From a bacterium (lineage in GTDB: Bacteria > Bacillota > Clostridia > UBA1381), in contig JAUNPN010000010.1 of NCBI GenBank assembly GCA_030536655.1, positions 1 through 42,276 on the forward strand: a stretch of DNA of 42,276 nucleotides. The letters are read 5' to 3'. The notes under the pieces are model-generated. The model searched no databases, was not told the DNA's origin, and saw only the letters and a program-made list of their open reading frames with translations. Shown here one piece after another: positions 13,965-28,422 of this stretch (positions within the stretch are counted from its first letter, which is position 1; each line of letters opens with the position of its first letter). A program made the translations under genes and the position numbers.

Positions 13965-14003
13965 GCGGCAAGATGCGCCGCTTATCTTTTTCCAAACTTA
14001 TAA
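13965..14003 (-). repeat. partial, inverted copy of the GTTTGG palindromic repeat; doubles as kdpE terminator
   Basis: On the minus strand this reads TTATAAGTTTGG and then AAAAAGATAAGCGGC, followed by GCATCTTGCCGC, the same as the left arm of the units at 18196 and 27359. The right arm is missing. On the plus strand the same bases form a GCGGC/GCCGC hairpin followed by TTATCTTTTT, 24 bases past the kdpE stop, a plausible intrinsic terminator. Confidence 0.75.
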
Positions 14004-15960: not shown

Positions 15961-16680
15961 ATGAATATAGTAATCTGTGAGGATGATAATTCCTTCAGAC
16001 ATAAAATAGAGGAAATGACAGCTATGTATGCGGCGAAAAACCAATCTAATTCTGTATGCGTTCTTTCAACGGATGATGCGGAAAAGGTTATTGAGTACGC
16101 GGCGAAAAACAGCGAGCTTACGATCTACTTCCTTGACATTCAGCTTCAGGGCAGCCTTACCGGCTTTGATATTGCCTCGGAGATAAGGAAAAGGGACTGG
16201 AACAGCTCTATTGTATTTATCACAAGCTATAAGGAGAAGATTACTCTGACCTATGACTACAAGCTTGAGCTGCTTGATTACATAATAAAAACCGAGCCGG
16301 AAAAGCTTGAGCCGAAGGTATATGAATGCCTGCGCATTGCGGAGAGCCGTCAAAACAGCGGATATGACGGCGCACTGACTGTGCTTTCAAAGCGCTTCAA
16401 TACTACAATTCCGTTTAAGGATATATATATGATTGAAGCCTTAAAGGGCTCACATAAGCTTCTCCTTCATCACTCCAATGGTCTGTTTGAATTTTATTCC
16501 TCGATAAACGAGGTGCTGACCCGCCTTGATGATAGGTTTCTGCGCTGTCATAAGGCGGTTATCGTCAACACCGACCGAATCAGGACGGTAGATAAAAAGG
16601 AACATATTATCTACCTTGATAATGGGTGCAGCTGCGAGTATGCGCCCAAAAGCAGGGAGTGCAAGGCTTATGGAATTTGA
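15961..16680 (+). CDS. LytTR-family (AgrA-like) response regulator
   Basis: A 239-residue regulator: receiver domain (1-125) with acidic residues at 7-9, phosphoacceptor Asp59 in YFLDIQLQG and the TSYKEK segment, followed by a LytTR DNA-binding domain (about 140-238; KDIYMIEALKGSHKLLLHHS, FLRCHKAVIVNTDRI). LytTR proteins bind pairs of direct repeats about 21-22 bases apart. Three such pairs with the same promoter geometry lie in this window (15821, 21498, 30133). It overlaps the kinase gene that follows. No agrB or agrD gene is nearby. Confidence 0.95.
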   Translation: MNIVICEDDNSFRHKIEEMTAMYAAKNQSNSVCVLSTDDAEKVIEYAAKNSELTIYFLDIQLQGSLTGFDIASEIRKRDWNSSIVFITSYKEKITLTYDYKLELLDYIIKTEPEKLEPKVYECLRIAESRQNSGYDGALTVLSKRFNTTIPFKDIYMIEALKGSHKLLLHHSNGLFEFYSSINEVLTRLDDRFLRCHKAVIVNTDRIRTVDKKEHIIYLDNGCSCEYAPKSRECKAYGI

Positions 16681-18211
16681 TGCGATTCTTTCCTCGGCAG
16701 TATCGGCTTTAAGCGCGGGCGCGGTCTGCGCGGCAATGACAGCAGGACGGATGAGGAGAAATGTATTTTTACTTATGCTGCTGACGCTGCTTGTTTCGGC
16801 TGTGGGGGTATGGAATAAGACCGCGGTTTATCCGGCGGCTGCTGTTGTTATGGCGCTTGTTCTTTATGCGTCGGAGGCAAAGCCTGCTGATGCGGCTTCG
16901 GCGGCATTCGCGGCGGCAGGAACGGCATTTTTGATTTTATTTTTTGTAAACGGCATGGTGGCGCCGACTTTGGAGGCATATTCGTACACGCTTCGCTATG
17001 ACTTCTATTATGCGGGAGTGCACAGCCCCGTCGTGATGGCGTCAGCTGCCGTGATAATGGCGGCAATGATTATTATGATAAAGCTGCTGCCCTCGGACAG
17101 CAGGATGAGCGGCGCAGTTCCGATTTGCGTGATTTCTCTGTCGCTTGCGGCGGCAGCGGTTATGATTCTGCATATGCTGTTCGGAAGGCTGATTGAGTTT
17201 AACGCAAAGTATTTCAGGATTCCGCTTCCGTATTCGATGCTGACCGGTGCAATCGCTCTTTTGTGCTGTGCCTTTACCTGCATATTCATACGTGTGCTTT
17301 CATCAAAGCTTGTACTTTCGGAAAAGCTCAGCCAAACGAAGGAATTTTATCTTATACTTACGGCGATTATTCTTATGATAGTTTTCTACTGCTGTGAGAA
17401 TATAATTCTGAATAACTACACAAGCTTTGATGAACCGGAATATAAGTACATCACAACAATGCTGATTGTACTGATGCTCATAACCATTCTCACAGCGTTG
17501 ATTGCCGTATGCTCGTACATTCTCAGAACAAGAGCGTATCAGTCAAAGCTGGAACGCGATATGGAGATAACGGAAATGTATCGCAACGAAATTAAGGATA
17601 TTCAGCAGAATATATTTGATTTCAAGCACGATTATATGAAACTGTATTCATCAATGAGTTATTATCTGATCAATAAGGAGTATGACAGGCTGGAGGAGTT
17701 TTTCAACAGCAATATCACTCCCTTGCAGGAGGATTTGTTCAGCCTTGACGAGGAGGCGGCGGCAATTCGTATGCTTGAGGATAACGCGGTACAAGGACTT
17801 ATATATTCGTATATAATCAAGGCGAAGAAAGCCGGAGTATCGCTTTTGGTTGATATACGTGAAAATGTGCCGGTTCTGAGTGTGCCGGTAATGGATCTTA
17901 ACAGAATGCTGGGAATATTTCTTGACAATGCGATAGAGCAGGCGCAGACTCAGGACAAAAAAGTAGGCTTTGCCGCAATTACCGAGGAGGATTCTGTGAT
18001 TTTTATAATATCCAACGCGGCGGATAAGGTGGATATTGAAAAAATGTTTAAAAGGGGCGCAAGCTCTAAGGGTACAGACAGGGGCAGAGGTCTTGCGATT
18101 GCAAGAAAGCTGTGTGCGTCGCATGATGAAATGAGTATGCATACCTACATGAAAAACGGCTCGTTTGTATGTGAGCTGTATGTGAGCGAGGAGAAGTTTG
18201 GAAAAAGATAA
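16670..18211 (+). CDS. GHKL sensor histidine kinase (AgrC-like)
   Basis: A 513-residue membrane kinase. The start at 16670 is chosen because it overlaps the regulator stop by 11 bases and has GGGAG upstream. The N-terminal half holds about seven or eight hydrophobic segments, then a coiled-coil linker. The phosphoacceptor block is FDFKHDYMKLYSS, in place of the usual RHDYKNHL-type box. The ATP-binding part has GIFLDNAIEQA (N box) and GRGLAIARKLC (G box). The last six residues (EKFGKR) are encoded within the start of a palindromic repeat. The signal is unknown; small extracellular peptides are typical for AgrC but no peptide gene was found. Confidence 0.93.
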   Translation: MEFDAILSSAVSALSAGAVCAAMTAGRMRRNVFLLMLLTLLVSAVGVWNKTAVYPAAAVVMALVLYASEAKPADAASAAFAAAGTAFLILFFVNGMVAPTLEAYSYTLRYDFYYAGVHSPVVMASAAVIMAAMIIMIKLLPSDSRMSGAVPICVISLSLAAAAVMILHMLFGRLIEFNAKYFRIPLPYSMLTGAIALLCCAFTCIFIRVLSSKLVLSEKLSQTKEFYLILTAIILMIVFYCCENIILNNYTSFDEPEYKYITTMLIVLMLITILTALIAVCSYILRTRAYQSKLERDMEITEMYRNEIKDIQQNIFDFKHDYMKLYSSMSYYLINKEYDRLEEFFNSNITPLQEDLFSLDEEAAAIRMLEDNAVQGLIYSYIIKAKKAGVSLLVDIRENVPVLSVPVMDLNRMLGIFLDNAIEQAQTQDKKVGFAAITEEDSVIFIISNAADKVDIEKMFKRGASSKGTDRGRGLAIARKLCASHDEMSMHTYMKNGSFVCELYVSEEKFGKR

Positions 18212-18303
18212 GCGGCACATCTTGCCGCCCTCAGCGACTTGAAGTATAAACATACGTCGGCGTTGCTTCTGACGGCAATCTGCTTGCTTCTCTTTTCCCA
18301 AAC
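18196..18303 (+). repeat. GTTTGG palindromic repeat, full copy
   Basis: A 108-base imperfect palindrome with outer arms GTTTGG...AAGC and GCTTCTCTTTTCCCAAAC (16 of 18 paired). Inside are a TTGCCG/CGGCAA stem, a GCGAC/GTTGC stem and a GTAT-AAAC-ATAC tip. Its 5' end overlaps the kinase stop codon. The following bases GGGAGAGGAG (18304-18313) can pair with CTCTTTTCCC of the 3' arm. Confidence 0.9.
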
Positions 18304-18313
18304 GGGAGAGGAG

Positions 18314-18443
18314 TAAAGATAAGCTGCACATCTTGCCGCCATTCGGGGCTTGAAGTACATTGAGTACGACTGAGCCCCTCAAAGCGGCAATCTGCATGCT
18401 TCTCTTTTCCCAAACGCATTGGTGAAAGGAGTTCGAATTATAA
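18314..18443 (+). repeat. GTTTGG palindromic repeat, variant copy with compensatory stem changes, plus tail
   Basis: The left end is truncated (starts at AAAGATAAGC). The middle stem is GGGGC/GCCCC instead of GCGAC/GTCGC and the tip stem is GTAC/GTAC instead of GTAT/ATAC, so pairing is kept while sequence changes. It ends CCCAAAC at 18415, then carries the tail GCATTGGTGAAAGGAGTTCG ending ATTATAA at 18443. Confidence 0.88.
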
Positions 18444-18506
18444 GTTTGGGAAAAGATAAGCACCGCTTCTCTTTTCCCAAACGGGAAAGGAGTTCGGATT
18501 ATAAAT
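18444..18506 (+). repeat. GTTTGG palindromic repeat, short copy, with tail carrying the ribosome binding site of the GH26 gene
   Basis: The minimal hairpin GTTTGGGAAAAGATAAGC / GCTTCTCTTTTCCCAAAC with loop ACC (18444-18482; 17 of 18 paired). A shortened tail has AAAGGAG at 18486-18492 and the ATG at 18507. CTTTTCCC (18471-18478) can instead pair with GGGAAAGG (18483-18490) around an AAAC loop, which would hide the ribosome binding site. Confidence 0.88.
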
Positions 18507-20285
18507 ATGAAAAAAATACCGGTTATAATTGCCTCGGCAATTGCAGCGGCAGCAGTGGTTCTGTCGCTTGTATCCTGCGGCGGCAGCAAGCTTATTCTTT
18601 CCACGGATTCGGAGGAAATTATATTTGACGGAGTGCCTATGCAGGGATATACCATAAACGGAACAAGGGTAATTTCCGTTGAGGATTTGGAGCGGTATGG
18701 CTTTGAAATCCGTGACAGTGAGAAGGAAATAAACGCAGTAGGCGGCGAAAGTATAACCGAAATTCCGGATACGTCGGGAATATCGCGGACTATTGCGGAG
18801 CTTTCGAAGGCAAAGCCTTCAAAAAAGACAATCAAAATCAATTCGCTGCGCATCGACGGCTATGAGGCGGAGGGCAGGCATTATGTCGCGCTTGACAAGC
18901 TTTGTGCGTTCCGCACCGAATACAATTCCCTGTGGGGATATTCCGATTATAATTTTGTATCGCATAATGAAAACGGCAAAATAATAGTTGACGTATTCCG
19001 TATAAGAATAATTGATATAGGAGCCCAGTGGGACAGGTTAAACGCAATGGTTTCAGTTCCGGAGATGGAATTGTATACGGAGGATTATTCGCGTTCAAGC
19101 GTGCCGTATTACGGCGCAAGGCTGGAACCGCCGGCGGGAATTTATGCGGGGGTAAACGGTGATGATGTGTTTGAAAGCGACTGCCTTGGTTCATCGCTCA
19201 ACTATATTGAGTTCAGCGACTATCAGAAGGATATATTAAAGCCTAATAAGGATTATGTAAAGGCTCACAGCTGCATTATAACGGCTGCATGGAATATAGA
19301 TGATCTTGCCGATGTGTTTGACCGGGAGGAATATATACGGGAAACGCTTGATAATCTTGCAAAGTATCATAAGCCGGTAATTGTCCGTATAGGAGCGGAG
19401 ATGAATGTATCGGAGCTGGGCGATGCTCCGGCGGCATACGTGAATGCGTTCCGTATGATTTCGTCCATAGTGCATGAGTATCCGGATTTTGCGGTAATGT
19501 GGTCGCCGAATGATATGTGTGCGCTGAATAAGCCGTTTGAATATTATTGGCCGGGCGATGAGTATGTTGACTGGATTGGAGTTTCGGCATTTATGAAAAA
19601 GCATTTCAGCGGCGACACGACTTTGCCGCGTGACGGAAATGTGTATTTTATGACGGGAGATTTTGCCTATACCACAAATACCCTGAAGAATATCACTGAT
19701 TTTATGGAACGTCATGGTATAGAAAAGCCGATCGCGGTGAGCGAGGGCGGAACGGTTACTCAGCTTAACTATCCGAACGGCGGAGAGATTGAGGAATGGT
19801 CAAAAACAAGGCTGGGCTATATGTACTGGTATGCGCCTATGCGCTTCCCGCAGCTTAAGCTGATAAATTACTTTAATCATAATATGCCGGAGGAGATGCA
19901 GTTCTTTAATATGCACGACAGACCGGAGTTTGTCGCACTGATAAACGAGGCTCTTTCAAACGGTCAGTACAGGCGCACTGCAAATGACACACCGTCCTTT
20001 ACTTTTGCGAAGGCGGCGGACAGGACGTATGAGCAGACTGCAATTCCTCTGTATACCTACGCATATCTGCCGGAGGAAACGATACAGAAGGTTGAATACC
20101 TGCTTGACGGCGGACTGCTGTTTGAAAGCACGAAAATTCCGTACAAGTATACGCCGACAACCGAGTTTTTGCCGGAGGGAAAGCACGAGCTGGTTGTAAG
20201 AATTACCGGCAGCAGCAGTGTAAAGGAAATGGAATTCAGCTTGACAAGACAGGGAAAGAGTGTTACAATAAGCAATAAAAAATAA
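18507..20285 (+). CDS. lipoprotein with stalk domain and GH26-like glycoside hydrolase domain
   Basis: A 592-residue exported lipoprotein: signal peptide with lipobox LVSC (Cys24). Residues 35-135 resemble a copper-amine-oxidase N-terminal 'stalk' domain (FDGVPMQGYTINGTRVISVE). The catalytic domain (about 165-470) resembles GH26, with probable acid/base Glu298 in RIGAEMN, probable nucleophile Glu413 in AVSEGG, and WSPND and WIGVSAF segments. A C-terminal Ig-like part follows. GH26 enzymes cut beta-mannans and related beta-glycans; the substrate here is not known. It follows the LytTR two-component genes and precedes an acyltransferase, which suggests surface or exopolysaccharide processing. 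Confidence 0.82.
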   Translation: MKKIPVIIASAIAAAAVVLSLVSCGGSKLILSTDSEEIIFDGVPMQGYTINGTRVISVEDLERYGFEIRDSEKEINAVGGESITEIPDTSGISRTIAELSKAKPSKKTIKINSLRIDGYEAEGRHYVALDKLCAFRTEYNSLWGYSDYNFVSHNENGKIIVDVFRIRIIDIGAQWDRLNAMVSVPEMELYTEDYSRSSVPYYGARLEPPAGIYAGVNGDDVFESDCLGSSLNYIEFSDYQKDILKPNKDYVKAHSCIITAAWNIDDLADVFDREEYIRETLDNLAKYHKPVIVRIGAEMNVSELGDAPAAYVNAFRMISSIVHEYPDFAVMWSPNDMCALNKPFEYYWPGDEYVDWIGVSAFMKKHFSGDTTLPRDGNVYFMTGDFAYTTNTLKNITDFMERHGIEKPIAVSEGGTVTQLNYPNGGEIEEWSKTRLGYMYWYAPMRFPQLKLINYFNHNMPEEMQFFNMHDRPEFVALINEALSNGQYRRTANDTPSFTFAKAADRTYEQTAIPLYTYAYLPEETIQKVEYLLDGGLLFESTKIPYKYTPTTEFLPEGKHELVVRITGSSSVKEMEFSLTRQGKSVTISNKK

Positions 20286-21390: not shown

Positions 21391-21436
21391 CAATATTTTT
21401 ATCGGACAAAAGCTTTTTTGTCCGATAAAAATATTG
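21391..21436 (+). terminator. long perfect hairpin, probable terminator
   Basis: Perfect 21-base arms (21391-21411 and 21416-21436) with a GCTT loop. A T-run lies inside the loop/right arm and A-runs in the left arm, but no T-run follows the stem. It closes the GH26-acyltransferase unit. Confidence 0.65.
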
Positions 21437-22889: not shown

Positions 22890-23027
22890 GTTTGGAAAAA
22901 GATAAGCTGCGAATCTTGCCGTCCTCAGCGACTTGAAGTATAAACATACGTCGGCGTCACTTCTGACGGCAATCTGCTTGCTTCTCTTTTCCCAAAAGCA
23001 TTGGTGAAAGGAGTTCGGATTATAATA
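22890..23027 (+). repeat. GTTTGG palindromic repeat, full copy, with tail carrying a ribosome binding site
   Basis: A full unit (22890-22997), close to those at 18196 and 27359, ending CCCAAAAG. The tail GCATTGGTGAAAGGAGTTCG ends with ATTATAATA before the ATG at 23028. CTTTTC/CCAA of the 3' arm (22986-22995) can pair with TTGG/GAAAG of the tail (23001-23010) around a five-base loop, hiding GAAAGG. Confidence 0.88.
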
Positions 23028-23444
23028 ATGAAAAAAAGAATATTGGGCTTATGCTTATGTATGATTTTAGCGGCAGCGGGTACCTGCCATGCCGCCAATG
23101 AACCTATATACTTTGACGATATGACTGTGCATATGTGTCCGGTTATGAATAATTTGCCAACCGGCATTACTTCGGAGACAAAGGTAAATAATATAGTCCC
23201 TTTGTCTGAGGGCGAAAACTGTATATCGTTATCATTTTCAGCTGTTGATGATAATGATATATATTTTGTGTCAGTTTTTGATATAGACGAGGGTTATATA
23301 ACACCGGTGAGCGGAGTTCCGGTCACGCAGGATAAGTTCGTTATAAAAGGGCTGACGGAAGGACATAACTATCATGTCAGGGTATCGGCTTTATTGAACG
23401 AGCATACTGTAAGCGGAACTATTCAAACTGGGTTTAAAGAATGA
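23028..23444 (+). CDS. small secreted protein, Fn3-like paralogue, function unknown
   Basis: 138 residues with a signal peptide (MKKRILGLCLCMILAAAG, cleavage likely after CHA). The ATG at 23028 is preferred: the open frame runs back to a TTG at 23001, but that stretch is repeat tail shared with unrelated genes. The beta-rich mature domain aligns with the product of 21981 (IVPLSEGEN, IKGLTEGHNYHVRVSA). The ribosome site AAAGGAG lies 14 bases upstream, unusually far. The next gene begins within 12 bases, so it probably shares the transcript. Confidence 0.75.
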   Translation: MKKRILGLCLCMILAAAGTCHAANEPIYFDDMTVHMCPVMNNLPTGITSETKVNNIVPLSEGENCISLSFSAVDDNDIYFVSVFDIDEGYITPVSGVPVTQDKFVIKGLTEGHNYHVRVSALLNEHTVSGTIQTGFKE

Positions 23445-27358: not shown

Positions 27359-27491
27359 GTTTGGAAAAAGATAAGCTGCGCATCTCGCCGCCCTTAGCGA
27401 CTTGAAGTATAAACATACGTCGGCGTCGCTTCTGACGGCAATCTGCTTGCTTCTCTTTTCCCAAACGCATTGGTGGGAATTCGGATTGTAA
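27359..27491 (+). repeat. GTTTGG palindromic repeat, full copy, with degenerate tail
   Basis: A full 108-base unit (27359-27466). The middle stem GCGAC/GTCGC is fully paired here (a wobble in the copy at 18196). The tail reads GCATTGGTGGGAATTCGGAT and lacks the AAAGGAG found elsewhere. Confidence 0.9.
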
Positions 27492-27558
27492 GTTTGGAAA
27501 AAGATAAGCACCGCTTCTCTTTTCCCAAACACATTGGTGAAAGGAATTCGGATTGTAA
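27492..27558 (+). repeat. GTTTGG palindromic repeat, short copy with tail
   Basis: A minimal hairpin (27492-27530) with the same ACC loop as the copy at 18444. The tail ACATTGGTGAAAGGAATTCG ends GATTGTAA at about 27558. It stands in tandem with the full copy before it, as in the arrangement before the gene at 18507. Confidence 0.88.
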
Positions 27559-27624
27559 GTTTTAAAGAAATGCAGCGAGCATTTCTATCAAACGGCATTG
27601 GTAAAAGGAGTTCGGATTATAGAT
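27559..27624 (+). repeat. third leader hairpin with repeat tail and ribosome binding site of the HAD gene
   Basis: A different hairpin, AGAAATGC/GCATTTCT (27566-27586), replaces the GTTTGG arms, but the tail ACGGCATTGGTAAAAGGAGT followed by TCGGATTATA is the same family. TATCAA and TTGGTA can pair around ACGGCA. AAAGGAG is 14 bases before the ATG at 27625. Confidence 0.75.
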
Positions 27625-28422
27625 ATGATAAAATTTATTGCCTGCGATATGGACGGCACTCTGCTTAACTCAAAGAAGGAGATGCCGGAAAATTTTGAAT
27701 ACGTGCTTGATGAGCTGAGAAAGCGCGGCGTGATTTTTGCCGTTTCAAGCGGCAGACAGTATGACAGTTTGAATAAGCAGTTTGAACATATACGCGACAA
27801 GATATATATTATTGCCGAGAACGGAGCCTGCGTTTATGATGATAAGGGCAGACGGCTGCTGAGTGATCCTCTGGATAAGGAGTCGTGCGCGGAAATTATT
27901 GAAAAGCTCATTGATGAGAAGGATTTGTATATTGTAGTCTGCGGCGCGGAAAGCGCTTACGGAGAGGCACGCAATGAACCGATTTTGCAGCACGTTCTTC
28001 CTTATTATATAAAGTACAAAACGGTGGAAAGCTCGGTAAAGGCGTCGAAGCAGGATGATGTATATAAAATTGCCGTATTTGACGGTCAAGGCTCTGAAAA
28101 GCATTGTTACCCGATGCTTCGGGACTATTACGAAAGTCACAACGTGCTTGTATCGGGTGACGACTGGCTTGATGTTATGAAAAAGGGCGTTACTAAGGGT
28201 ACGGCAATAAAGCAGCTGCAATTAAAGCTCAATATTGCAAAAGAGGAATGTATGGCATTCGGTGACTTCATGAATGATTATGATATGATGATGGAATGCG
28301 GAGAGAGCTATGCTATGGAAAACGCACACCCGGATTTGAAGGCGGTATGCAGGCATATTGCACCGTCAAATGATGATAACGGCGTTATGAAAACTATTTG
28401 CAGCGTTTTTCAAATATCCTGA
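27625..28422 (+). CDS. HAD-superfamily (Cof-type) sugar phosphatase
   Basis: A 265-residue cytoplasmic hydrolase. Motif I is ACDMDGTLL with Asp8 and Asp10, motif II is AVSSGR, motif III is a lysine in MKKGVTKGTAIKQL, and motif IV is FGDFMNDYDMM. The cap region between motifs II and III is the C2 type seen in Cof/YidA phosphatases, which act on sugar phosphates and related metabolites. The ATG at 27625 is chosen; the open frame continues back to 27598 only through repeat tail. Translation starts from the repeat-supplied ribosome site. Confidence 0.92.
   Translation: MIKFIACDMDGTLLNSKKEMPENFEYVLDELRKRGVIFAVSSGRQYDSLNKQFEHIRDKIYIIAENGACVYDDKGRRLLSDPLDKESCAEIIEKLIDEKDLYIVVCGAESAYGEARNEPILQHVLPYYIKYKTVESSVKASKQDDVYKIAVFDGQGSEKHCYPMLRDYYESHNVLVSGDDWLDVMKKGVTKGTAIKQLQLKLNIAKEECMAFGDFMNDYDMMMECGESYAMENAHPDLKAVCRHIAPSNDDNGVMKTICSVFQIS

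Follow-up and report, generated by a model that had tools for sequence, protein, structure and literature searches.

Short hairpin repeats with a Shine-Dalgarno tail lie two nucleotides upstream of start codons in unrelated genes of gut Clostridia

Introduction

Mobile DNA usually limits harm by landing between or behind genes. Elements of the IS200/IS605 type, which use a Y1 HUH transposase, combine subterminal hairpins, strand asymmetry and a short target motif, and they transpose as single strands without target duplication. The attC sites of integrons are imperfect hairpins whose bottom strand is active and which join in tandem. To our knowledge, no described mobile element inserts 2 nt before start codons and brings its own ribosome-binding sequence.

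According to the available text of two reports, a GTAG or CGTC tag marks REPs, which are tied to RAYTs and, in the cases studied, are recognised as folded single-stranded DNA (PMC3733652, PMC8266576). BOX and RUP are described, in the available text of a third, as having terminal inverted repeats and target duplications (PMC3049150). The same texts report no start-codon placement rule for REPs (PMC3733652, PMC8266576) or for BOX and RUP (PMC3049150).

Here, we analysed a repeat family in a 42,276-nt stretch of clostridial DNA (the window, meaning this whole stretch), which belongs to a genome of 266 contigs and 3.49 Mb (G000). A first-pass annotation had described the family as palindromes bounded by GTTTGG and CCAAAC, placed before genes, and had read them as structured RNA under selection for pairing.

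Results

Repeat units in the window

Each unit consists of a hairpin of 39-110 nt (GTTTGG...CCAAAC, 39 or about 108 nt in the window) and a tail of 25-28 nt that ends ..TTGGTGAAAGGAGTTCGGATTATAA (in full GCATTGGTGAAAGGAGTTCGGATTATAA) and contains a Shine-Dalgarno (SD) sequence. This common tail, which stops 2 nt before ATG, was absent from the first-pass annotation. A search of the window for GTTTGG-N20..40-CCAAAC found 2 occurrences against 0.01 expected. Tandem units abut head to tail (TTATAA|GTTTGG), with part of the joints shortened.

The first array lies on the plus strand between the native SD of its downstream gene, GAGGAG (18188-18193), and the ATG of that gene (592 aa, 18507-20285, +). 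The SD is followed by AA and then by the GTTTGG of unit 1, a 108-nt hairpin at 18196-18303 (BLAST and sequence reading) with the inner class GCGAC/GTTGC. A shortened tail, GGGAGAGGAGT (18304-18314), fuses it to unit 2, the hairpin of which (18315-18415, inner class GGGGC/GCCCC) is without the first GTTTGG bases and is followed by a tail at 18417-18443 with the SD AAAGGAG and the 3' end ATTATAA (tail pattern search). Unit 3 is a minimal 39-nt hairpin at 18444-18482 (pattern search), and its tail, GGGAAAGGAGTTCGGATTATAA (18483-18504), stops 2 nt before the ATG at 18507. In-silico excision of 18196-18504 yields GAGGAG-AA-AT-ATG. A histidine-kinase-like gene (16616-18211) ends inside this array and takes its last codons and stop (KFGKR*) from AAGTTTGGAAAAAGATAA.

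A single full hairpin of 108 nt with the 3' end CCAAAA occupies 22890-22997 (+; BLAST and sequence reading); its tail, an exact consensus at 22999-23025, precedes the ATG of a 138-aa gene at 23028. The second array (+) comprises a 108-nt hairpin at 27359-27466 (BLAST and sequence reading) with a tail at 27467-27491 that abuts the next unit directly, a minimal 39-nt hairpin at 27492-27530 (pattern search) with a tail at 27531-27558, and a second kind of minimal hairpin, GTTTTAAAGAAATGC..GCATTTCTATCAAAC, at 27559-27594, which shares the tail of the other units (27595-27622) and had been overlooked. The ATG of a HAD-like hydrolase gene follows 2 nt on, at 27625.

Direct reading of the sequence confirmed the three 108-nt copies and the two 39-nt hairpins that had been annotated. 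Of the proposed boundaries, GTTTGG does not open the copy placed at 18314, which starts AAAGATAAGC, and the one at 22890 ends CCAAAA. A half copy reported at 13965 exists (about 13965-13997); it is the 3'-truncated head of a copy on the minus strand. Elsewhere in the window, a perfect 21-bp inverted repeat (CAATATTTTTATCGGACAAAA, 21391-21436) with a 4-nt loop lies just 3' of an acyltransferase-like gene and is probably a terminator.

Copy number, distribution and variants

The whole G000 genome holds about 100 copies: 58 BLAST matches to one hairpin, 85 tails at no more than 3 mismatches (0 with a reversed-pattern control) and about 105 hairpins (107 forward and 103 reverse matches, since a palindrome matches both strands). 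The covariance-model search that had been suggested, with unit plus tail as the model, recovered copies in 50 of the 95 genomes of the order, in 13 genera, all from the window's own family; 25 genomes from other families of the order gave no match. Copy numbers rise to 72 (G067) and 48 (G028). Two exact patterns had no match in viral contigs. Of two exact tail patterns searched in a genome contig collection, one gave no match and the second matched only G006, the MAG Clostridia bacterium RGIG9115 from water deer rectum, whose genus differs from that of G000.

Several variants share this architecture. A second tail type, GTTTTGTGAAAGGAGTTAATGGTYATAA / GTTTTGTGAAAGGAGTTAATGGTCATAA, was found in G010 (another genus), G009, G023, G030, G068 and G080. 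The second hairpin type, GTTTGAAAGAAAYGCTYGYTGCATC...GAGCATTTCTCTCAAAC, occurs at 27559-27594 of the window and at loci L120 (-), L132 (+), L085 (+) and L186 (-) with tail and position rule unchanged; one tail thus serves differing hairpins in G000. Several further cross-genus matches represent a third type (AC-GTGAAAAATAAGC...CACGTTA, 3' end of the tail GGAATGGAGGATTA), which likewise stops near a start codon, its boundary being uncertain by about 1 base. The remaining cross-genus matches displayed were tandem, degraded or with an unclear start codon.

Other repeats were seen within or around some units. The hairpins at L230 and L224 (G010), L294 (G023) and L311 contain an extra insert of about 50-90 nt with inverted arms, e.g. 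ACTCACCGCCAAGAAGGGCGGACGC...GCGGAGCAAAAGTGATGA, which is a nested second small element. A separate repeat, TTAATGCAGCRGGATAATTGAATAAG...CTTATTC, is present at two loci of the same genome, L129 and L136; a hairpin unit lies within the L129 repeat, a possible within-genome empty site.

Copies stand between the native SD and the start codon

Tails were read individually in G000 (99) and G006 (33). An ATG or GTG stands exactly at +2 after the tail in 29 of the 33 in G006 and 47 of the 99 in G000, where 44 ATGs fall at +2 and no more than 4 at any other offset. The annotated placement before genes was therefore borne out and is far more exact than claimed. Most G000 tails that lack a start at +2 run into another unit or into intergenic sequence resembling GTTTG, and roughly one third of the G000 copies lie away from gene starts. 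The +2 rule also holds for the second hairpin type in G000 and for all ten inspected copies with the second tail and GTTTG or GTCTG (six in G009, one each in G080, G068, G023 and G030), while G010 copies with the tail GTTTTGTGAAAGGAGTTAATGGTCATAA occupy the same position before the start. Orientation is always sense relative to the gene.

In G006, an SD-like motif lies within 9 nt upstream of the insertion in 24 of 27 cases; control windows shifted 12-108 nt farther upstream gave 2-7 of 27. The two bases that flank the element on its 5' side are A in 25 and 24 of these cases. With the element excised, SD-ATG spacing is mostly 6-10 nt, matching other genes of G006. Because the old SD would thus stand at a normal distance, the element appears to insert between SD and start and to supply a new SD. 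The excess in G000 is smaller (31 of 89 against 6-16 in controls), a difference that older insertions with a decayed, no longer used SD could account for. In a comparison between genera, G006 has the element at the ribE-ribBA junction, whereas the junctions of G000, G010 and G022 are short and intact, which marks, as judged from these junctions, a lineage-specific gain at ribBA. Taken together, the copies are very probably insertions that replace the SD of the gene.

The tail SD lies 14-15 nt from the ATG, farther than usual, and its use in translation is therefore not self-evident. In tail-only relics, hairpin and old SD have been lost and the tail still stands at +2, a pattern that use of the tail SD would predict.

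Genes 3' of copies, named from their translations, include ribBA, leuB, glyA, nusB, folD, a Sua5-like gene, dprA, ABC permeases, lipases and unknown secreted proteins. Since these genes are unrelated, the copies form no regulon. Only dprA was noticed with a copy in two genera: dprA-like genes have one 5' of the start codon at L105 (G000) and L151 (G006), which may reflect either independent insertion or inheritance.

Target form and the choice of start codons

These observations are best explained by a non-autonomous mobile element, composed of hairpin and SD-bearing tail, which is probably either targeted to translation starts or retained there. Its left flank is AA, followed by an element start of GT-TTG, GT-CTG or (TA) AC-GTG depending on the lineage, and its right end ..AA is followed by NN-ATG. 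The 5' end of the element (AA|GT-TTG, AA|GT-CTG, TA|AC-GTG) itself has the target form, so that copies can insert before each other and build tandem arrays. Among 27 G006 flanks, read as AA on the left and NN-ATG on the right, no common direct repeat extends past AA, and target duplication is not the rule. The sole case resembling one is L267 (G006), with GGAGGAATAA on both sides (5' GGGAGGAATAA|GTTTGG, 3' TTCGGAGGAATAA|aaATG).

In a rough count over the G006 loci, 13 of 388 non-coding AA-NNN-TG sites (about 3%) are starts, and the motif alone is thus insufficient to explain the placement. Copies at starts may reflect a choice of starts or mere survival: the young-looking G006 copies favour choice and the intergenic G000 copies favour survival. 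Under the latter explanation, an ordinary small interspersed repeat would land at many AA-NNN-TG sites, copies at starts would persist through dependence on the tail SD and the rest would be deleted, with recognition of starts unneeded. The non-start copies of G000, many of them before NN-NTG (mostly GTTTG), agree with it, and tail-only relics fit such entrapment; nevertheless, we consider it rather unlikely, given that the G006 copies are near-identical and essentially all at starts, although about 97% of non-coding motif sites lie elsewhere.

The stem covaries, with pairing kept on the antisense strand

An alignment of 44 sequences across genera, covering 38 stem pairs, bore out family-wide the annotated compensatory changes and selection on pairing. 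Pairing was kept in 89.1% of cells, compared with 74.7% after shuffling and 41-50% in slid controls; both sides had changed in 24 of the 38 pairs, with 261 double-changed cells against 88 shuffled. None of 500 shuffles attained any of five covariation measures, and the 12 top column pairs in a corrected G-test were all stem pairs. Entire stem bases have been exchanged between lineages with complementarity retained, and the internal loops are conserved. The hairpin is thus under selection for pairing, beyond shuffles and slid controls. Within three genera (G000 and its two nearest carriers), double changes mainly follow a single class split, so that the six window copies would have been insufficient proof by themselves.

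Strong covariation, conserved internal loops and the constant sense position directly 5' of a gene would also suit a cis-acting RNA regulator, that is, a 5' untranslated hairpin controlling translation of many genes. The mismatches argue against such a 5'UTR structure. On the sense strand, A-C outnumbers G-U by 98 to 30, not counting one pair that reads G-U in 32 sequences, and by 62 to 29 when three further doubtful stem-base pairs are excluded, even though prediction of the structure from the sense strand biases against this result; the mRNA strand accumulates A-C rather than G-U, which means that the antisense strand keeps its pairing. The antisense strand also folds more stably in 44 of 44 sequences with RNA parameters (mean 10.4 kcal/mol) and in 43 of 44 with DNA parameters (4.3 kcal/mol). 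As the sequences are related, these strand and mismatch counts do not represent independent events, and part of the A-C excess could be due to selection that weakens the mRNA hairpin. On the simplest interpretation, folding is required of the antisense strand, be it single-stranded DNA or antisense RNA, and not of the mRNA 5'UTR. Regulation by the hairpin is further disfavoured by the unrelated downstream genes with dprA as the one clear orthologue pair (two genera), by the loss of the hairpin in tail-only relics and by the tolerance of arrays and internal deletions. Rfam had no family above the gathering score, the weak matches being due to chance. The structured-RNA interpretation finds no support in these comparisons and seems improbable, the copies being better described as insertions that separate the native SD from its start codon.

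A mobile translational attenuator, in which the old SD drives a leader peptide from the TTG of the head (LEKDKRRILPPSAT*) and so controls the gene, was rejected as highly improbable: the TTG is suitably placed and a 14-codon frame is present in 58 of 108, 23 of 28 and 5 of 6 heads, but frame and stop are lost in two lineages (GTCTG type, second hairpin type) and codons 6-7 vary freely.

Search for a mobilising enzyme

No mobilising enzyme was found among the families checked (Y1/RAYT, IS110, reverse transcriptases). Y1/HUH genes are absent in the copy-rich G000, G023 and G080 and present in the copy-free G025, G064 and G073. PF01797 (Y1/RAYT) has no member in G000 and occurs in G006, G009 and G067 as well as in element-free genomes, and no copy flanks a Y1/RAYT gene in the loci checked. 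Neither PF02371 (IS110) nor reverse transcriptases track the element. The loci inspected held no autonomous long version with head and tail enclosing a gene.

Retrotransposition was also considered, because copies often lack their 5' end and seldom their 3' end, as in target-primed reverse transcription; yet loss of hairpin and old SD around a needed tail explains this bias, and the reverse transcriptases differ, being of the diversity-generating type in G000 and retron-like in G006. In the former (contig C122, L253:1296-3183), an accessory-variability-like ORF is followed by a 305-aa reverse transcriptase, a pair that looks like a diversity-generating retroelement. In the latter (contig C40, L252:1624-2544), the retron-like enzyme has 306 aa.

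Discussion

The mobile-element explanation implies the following course of events. A new copy would insert at (T)AA|NN-NTG in sense orientation, without detectable target duplication; in the young-looking set, the site would nearly always lie between SD and start, with exactly 2 nt left in front of the start codon. The original SD would stay upstream, useless for the gene, and the tail SD would take over, keeping the gene translated and thereafter dependent on the element. Movement would occur in trans, through a recombinase whose substrate would be the hairpin formed by the single antisense strand. A single-strand step in mobilisation is quite possible, though somewhat less likely than not. 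The same holds for the idea that the insertion machinery detects translation initiation regions themselves, i.e., an SD together with a start codon, where GTG starts and the TTG/CTG/GTG of the element also count. The element would then be one that homes to start codons, inserts 2 nt before them and repairs the damage with its built-in ribosome-binding site, with a recombinase acting on the antisense hairpin.

If this holds, the element strikes the few bases where a gene is most sensitive, and host genes would depend on it through a replacement ribosome-binding site. The copies would amount to hundreds of natural ribosome-binding site swaps at a fixed position, making the effects of SD distance and of a 5' hairpin comparable across genes, and they would point to a recombinase with a possible ability to locate start codons.

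We could find no earlier description of such an element in the literature searched, the coverage of which lacks many journals; a mobile hairpin inserting exactly 2 nt before the starts of unrelated genes, at dozens of sites in gut Clostridia, therefore appears undescribed. As far as the sequence comparisons made here can tell, it belongs to none of the REP, MITE or attC families. It resembles REPs and REPINs, as portrayed in the available text, in being a short, high-copy extragenic palindrome (PMC8266576, PMC3733652). In contrast to these, its foot (AAGTTTGG.. and ..CCAAACG) has no GTAG or CGTC tag; it is longer, has a tail of 25-28 nt outside the palindrome and stands in one orientation exactly before start codons, and no RAYT gene was found in G000 or beside copies. 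With the MITE-like BOX, RUP and SPRITE repeats of pneumococcus it shares, on the available account, modular hairpins before genes, families and tandem modules (PMC3049150), but, unlike BOX and RUP, it makes no target duplication as a rule. It also departs from MITEs in its termini, since the palindrome stops 25-28 nt short of the 3' boundary and leaves no terminal inverted repeats, and in the lack of target site duplication at the 27 G006 flanks.

The likeness to attC sites comprises the imperfect hairpin, the antisense strand and tandem joining. However, the element ends GTTTGG..CCAAAC are the reverse of AAC..GTT, without the R'' RYYYAAC and R' GTTRRRY boxes, and no cassettes were seen. IS200/IS605 elements differ in having a transposase gene, and their Y1 genes do not track the repeat; the target rule of the repeat also takes in NN-NTG beyond the insertion point. 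What the two have in common is a hairpin, strand asymmetry, the absence of target duplication and an adjoining short target motif, and the element may work like a single-strand element of the IS200/IS605 type.
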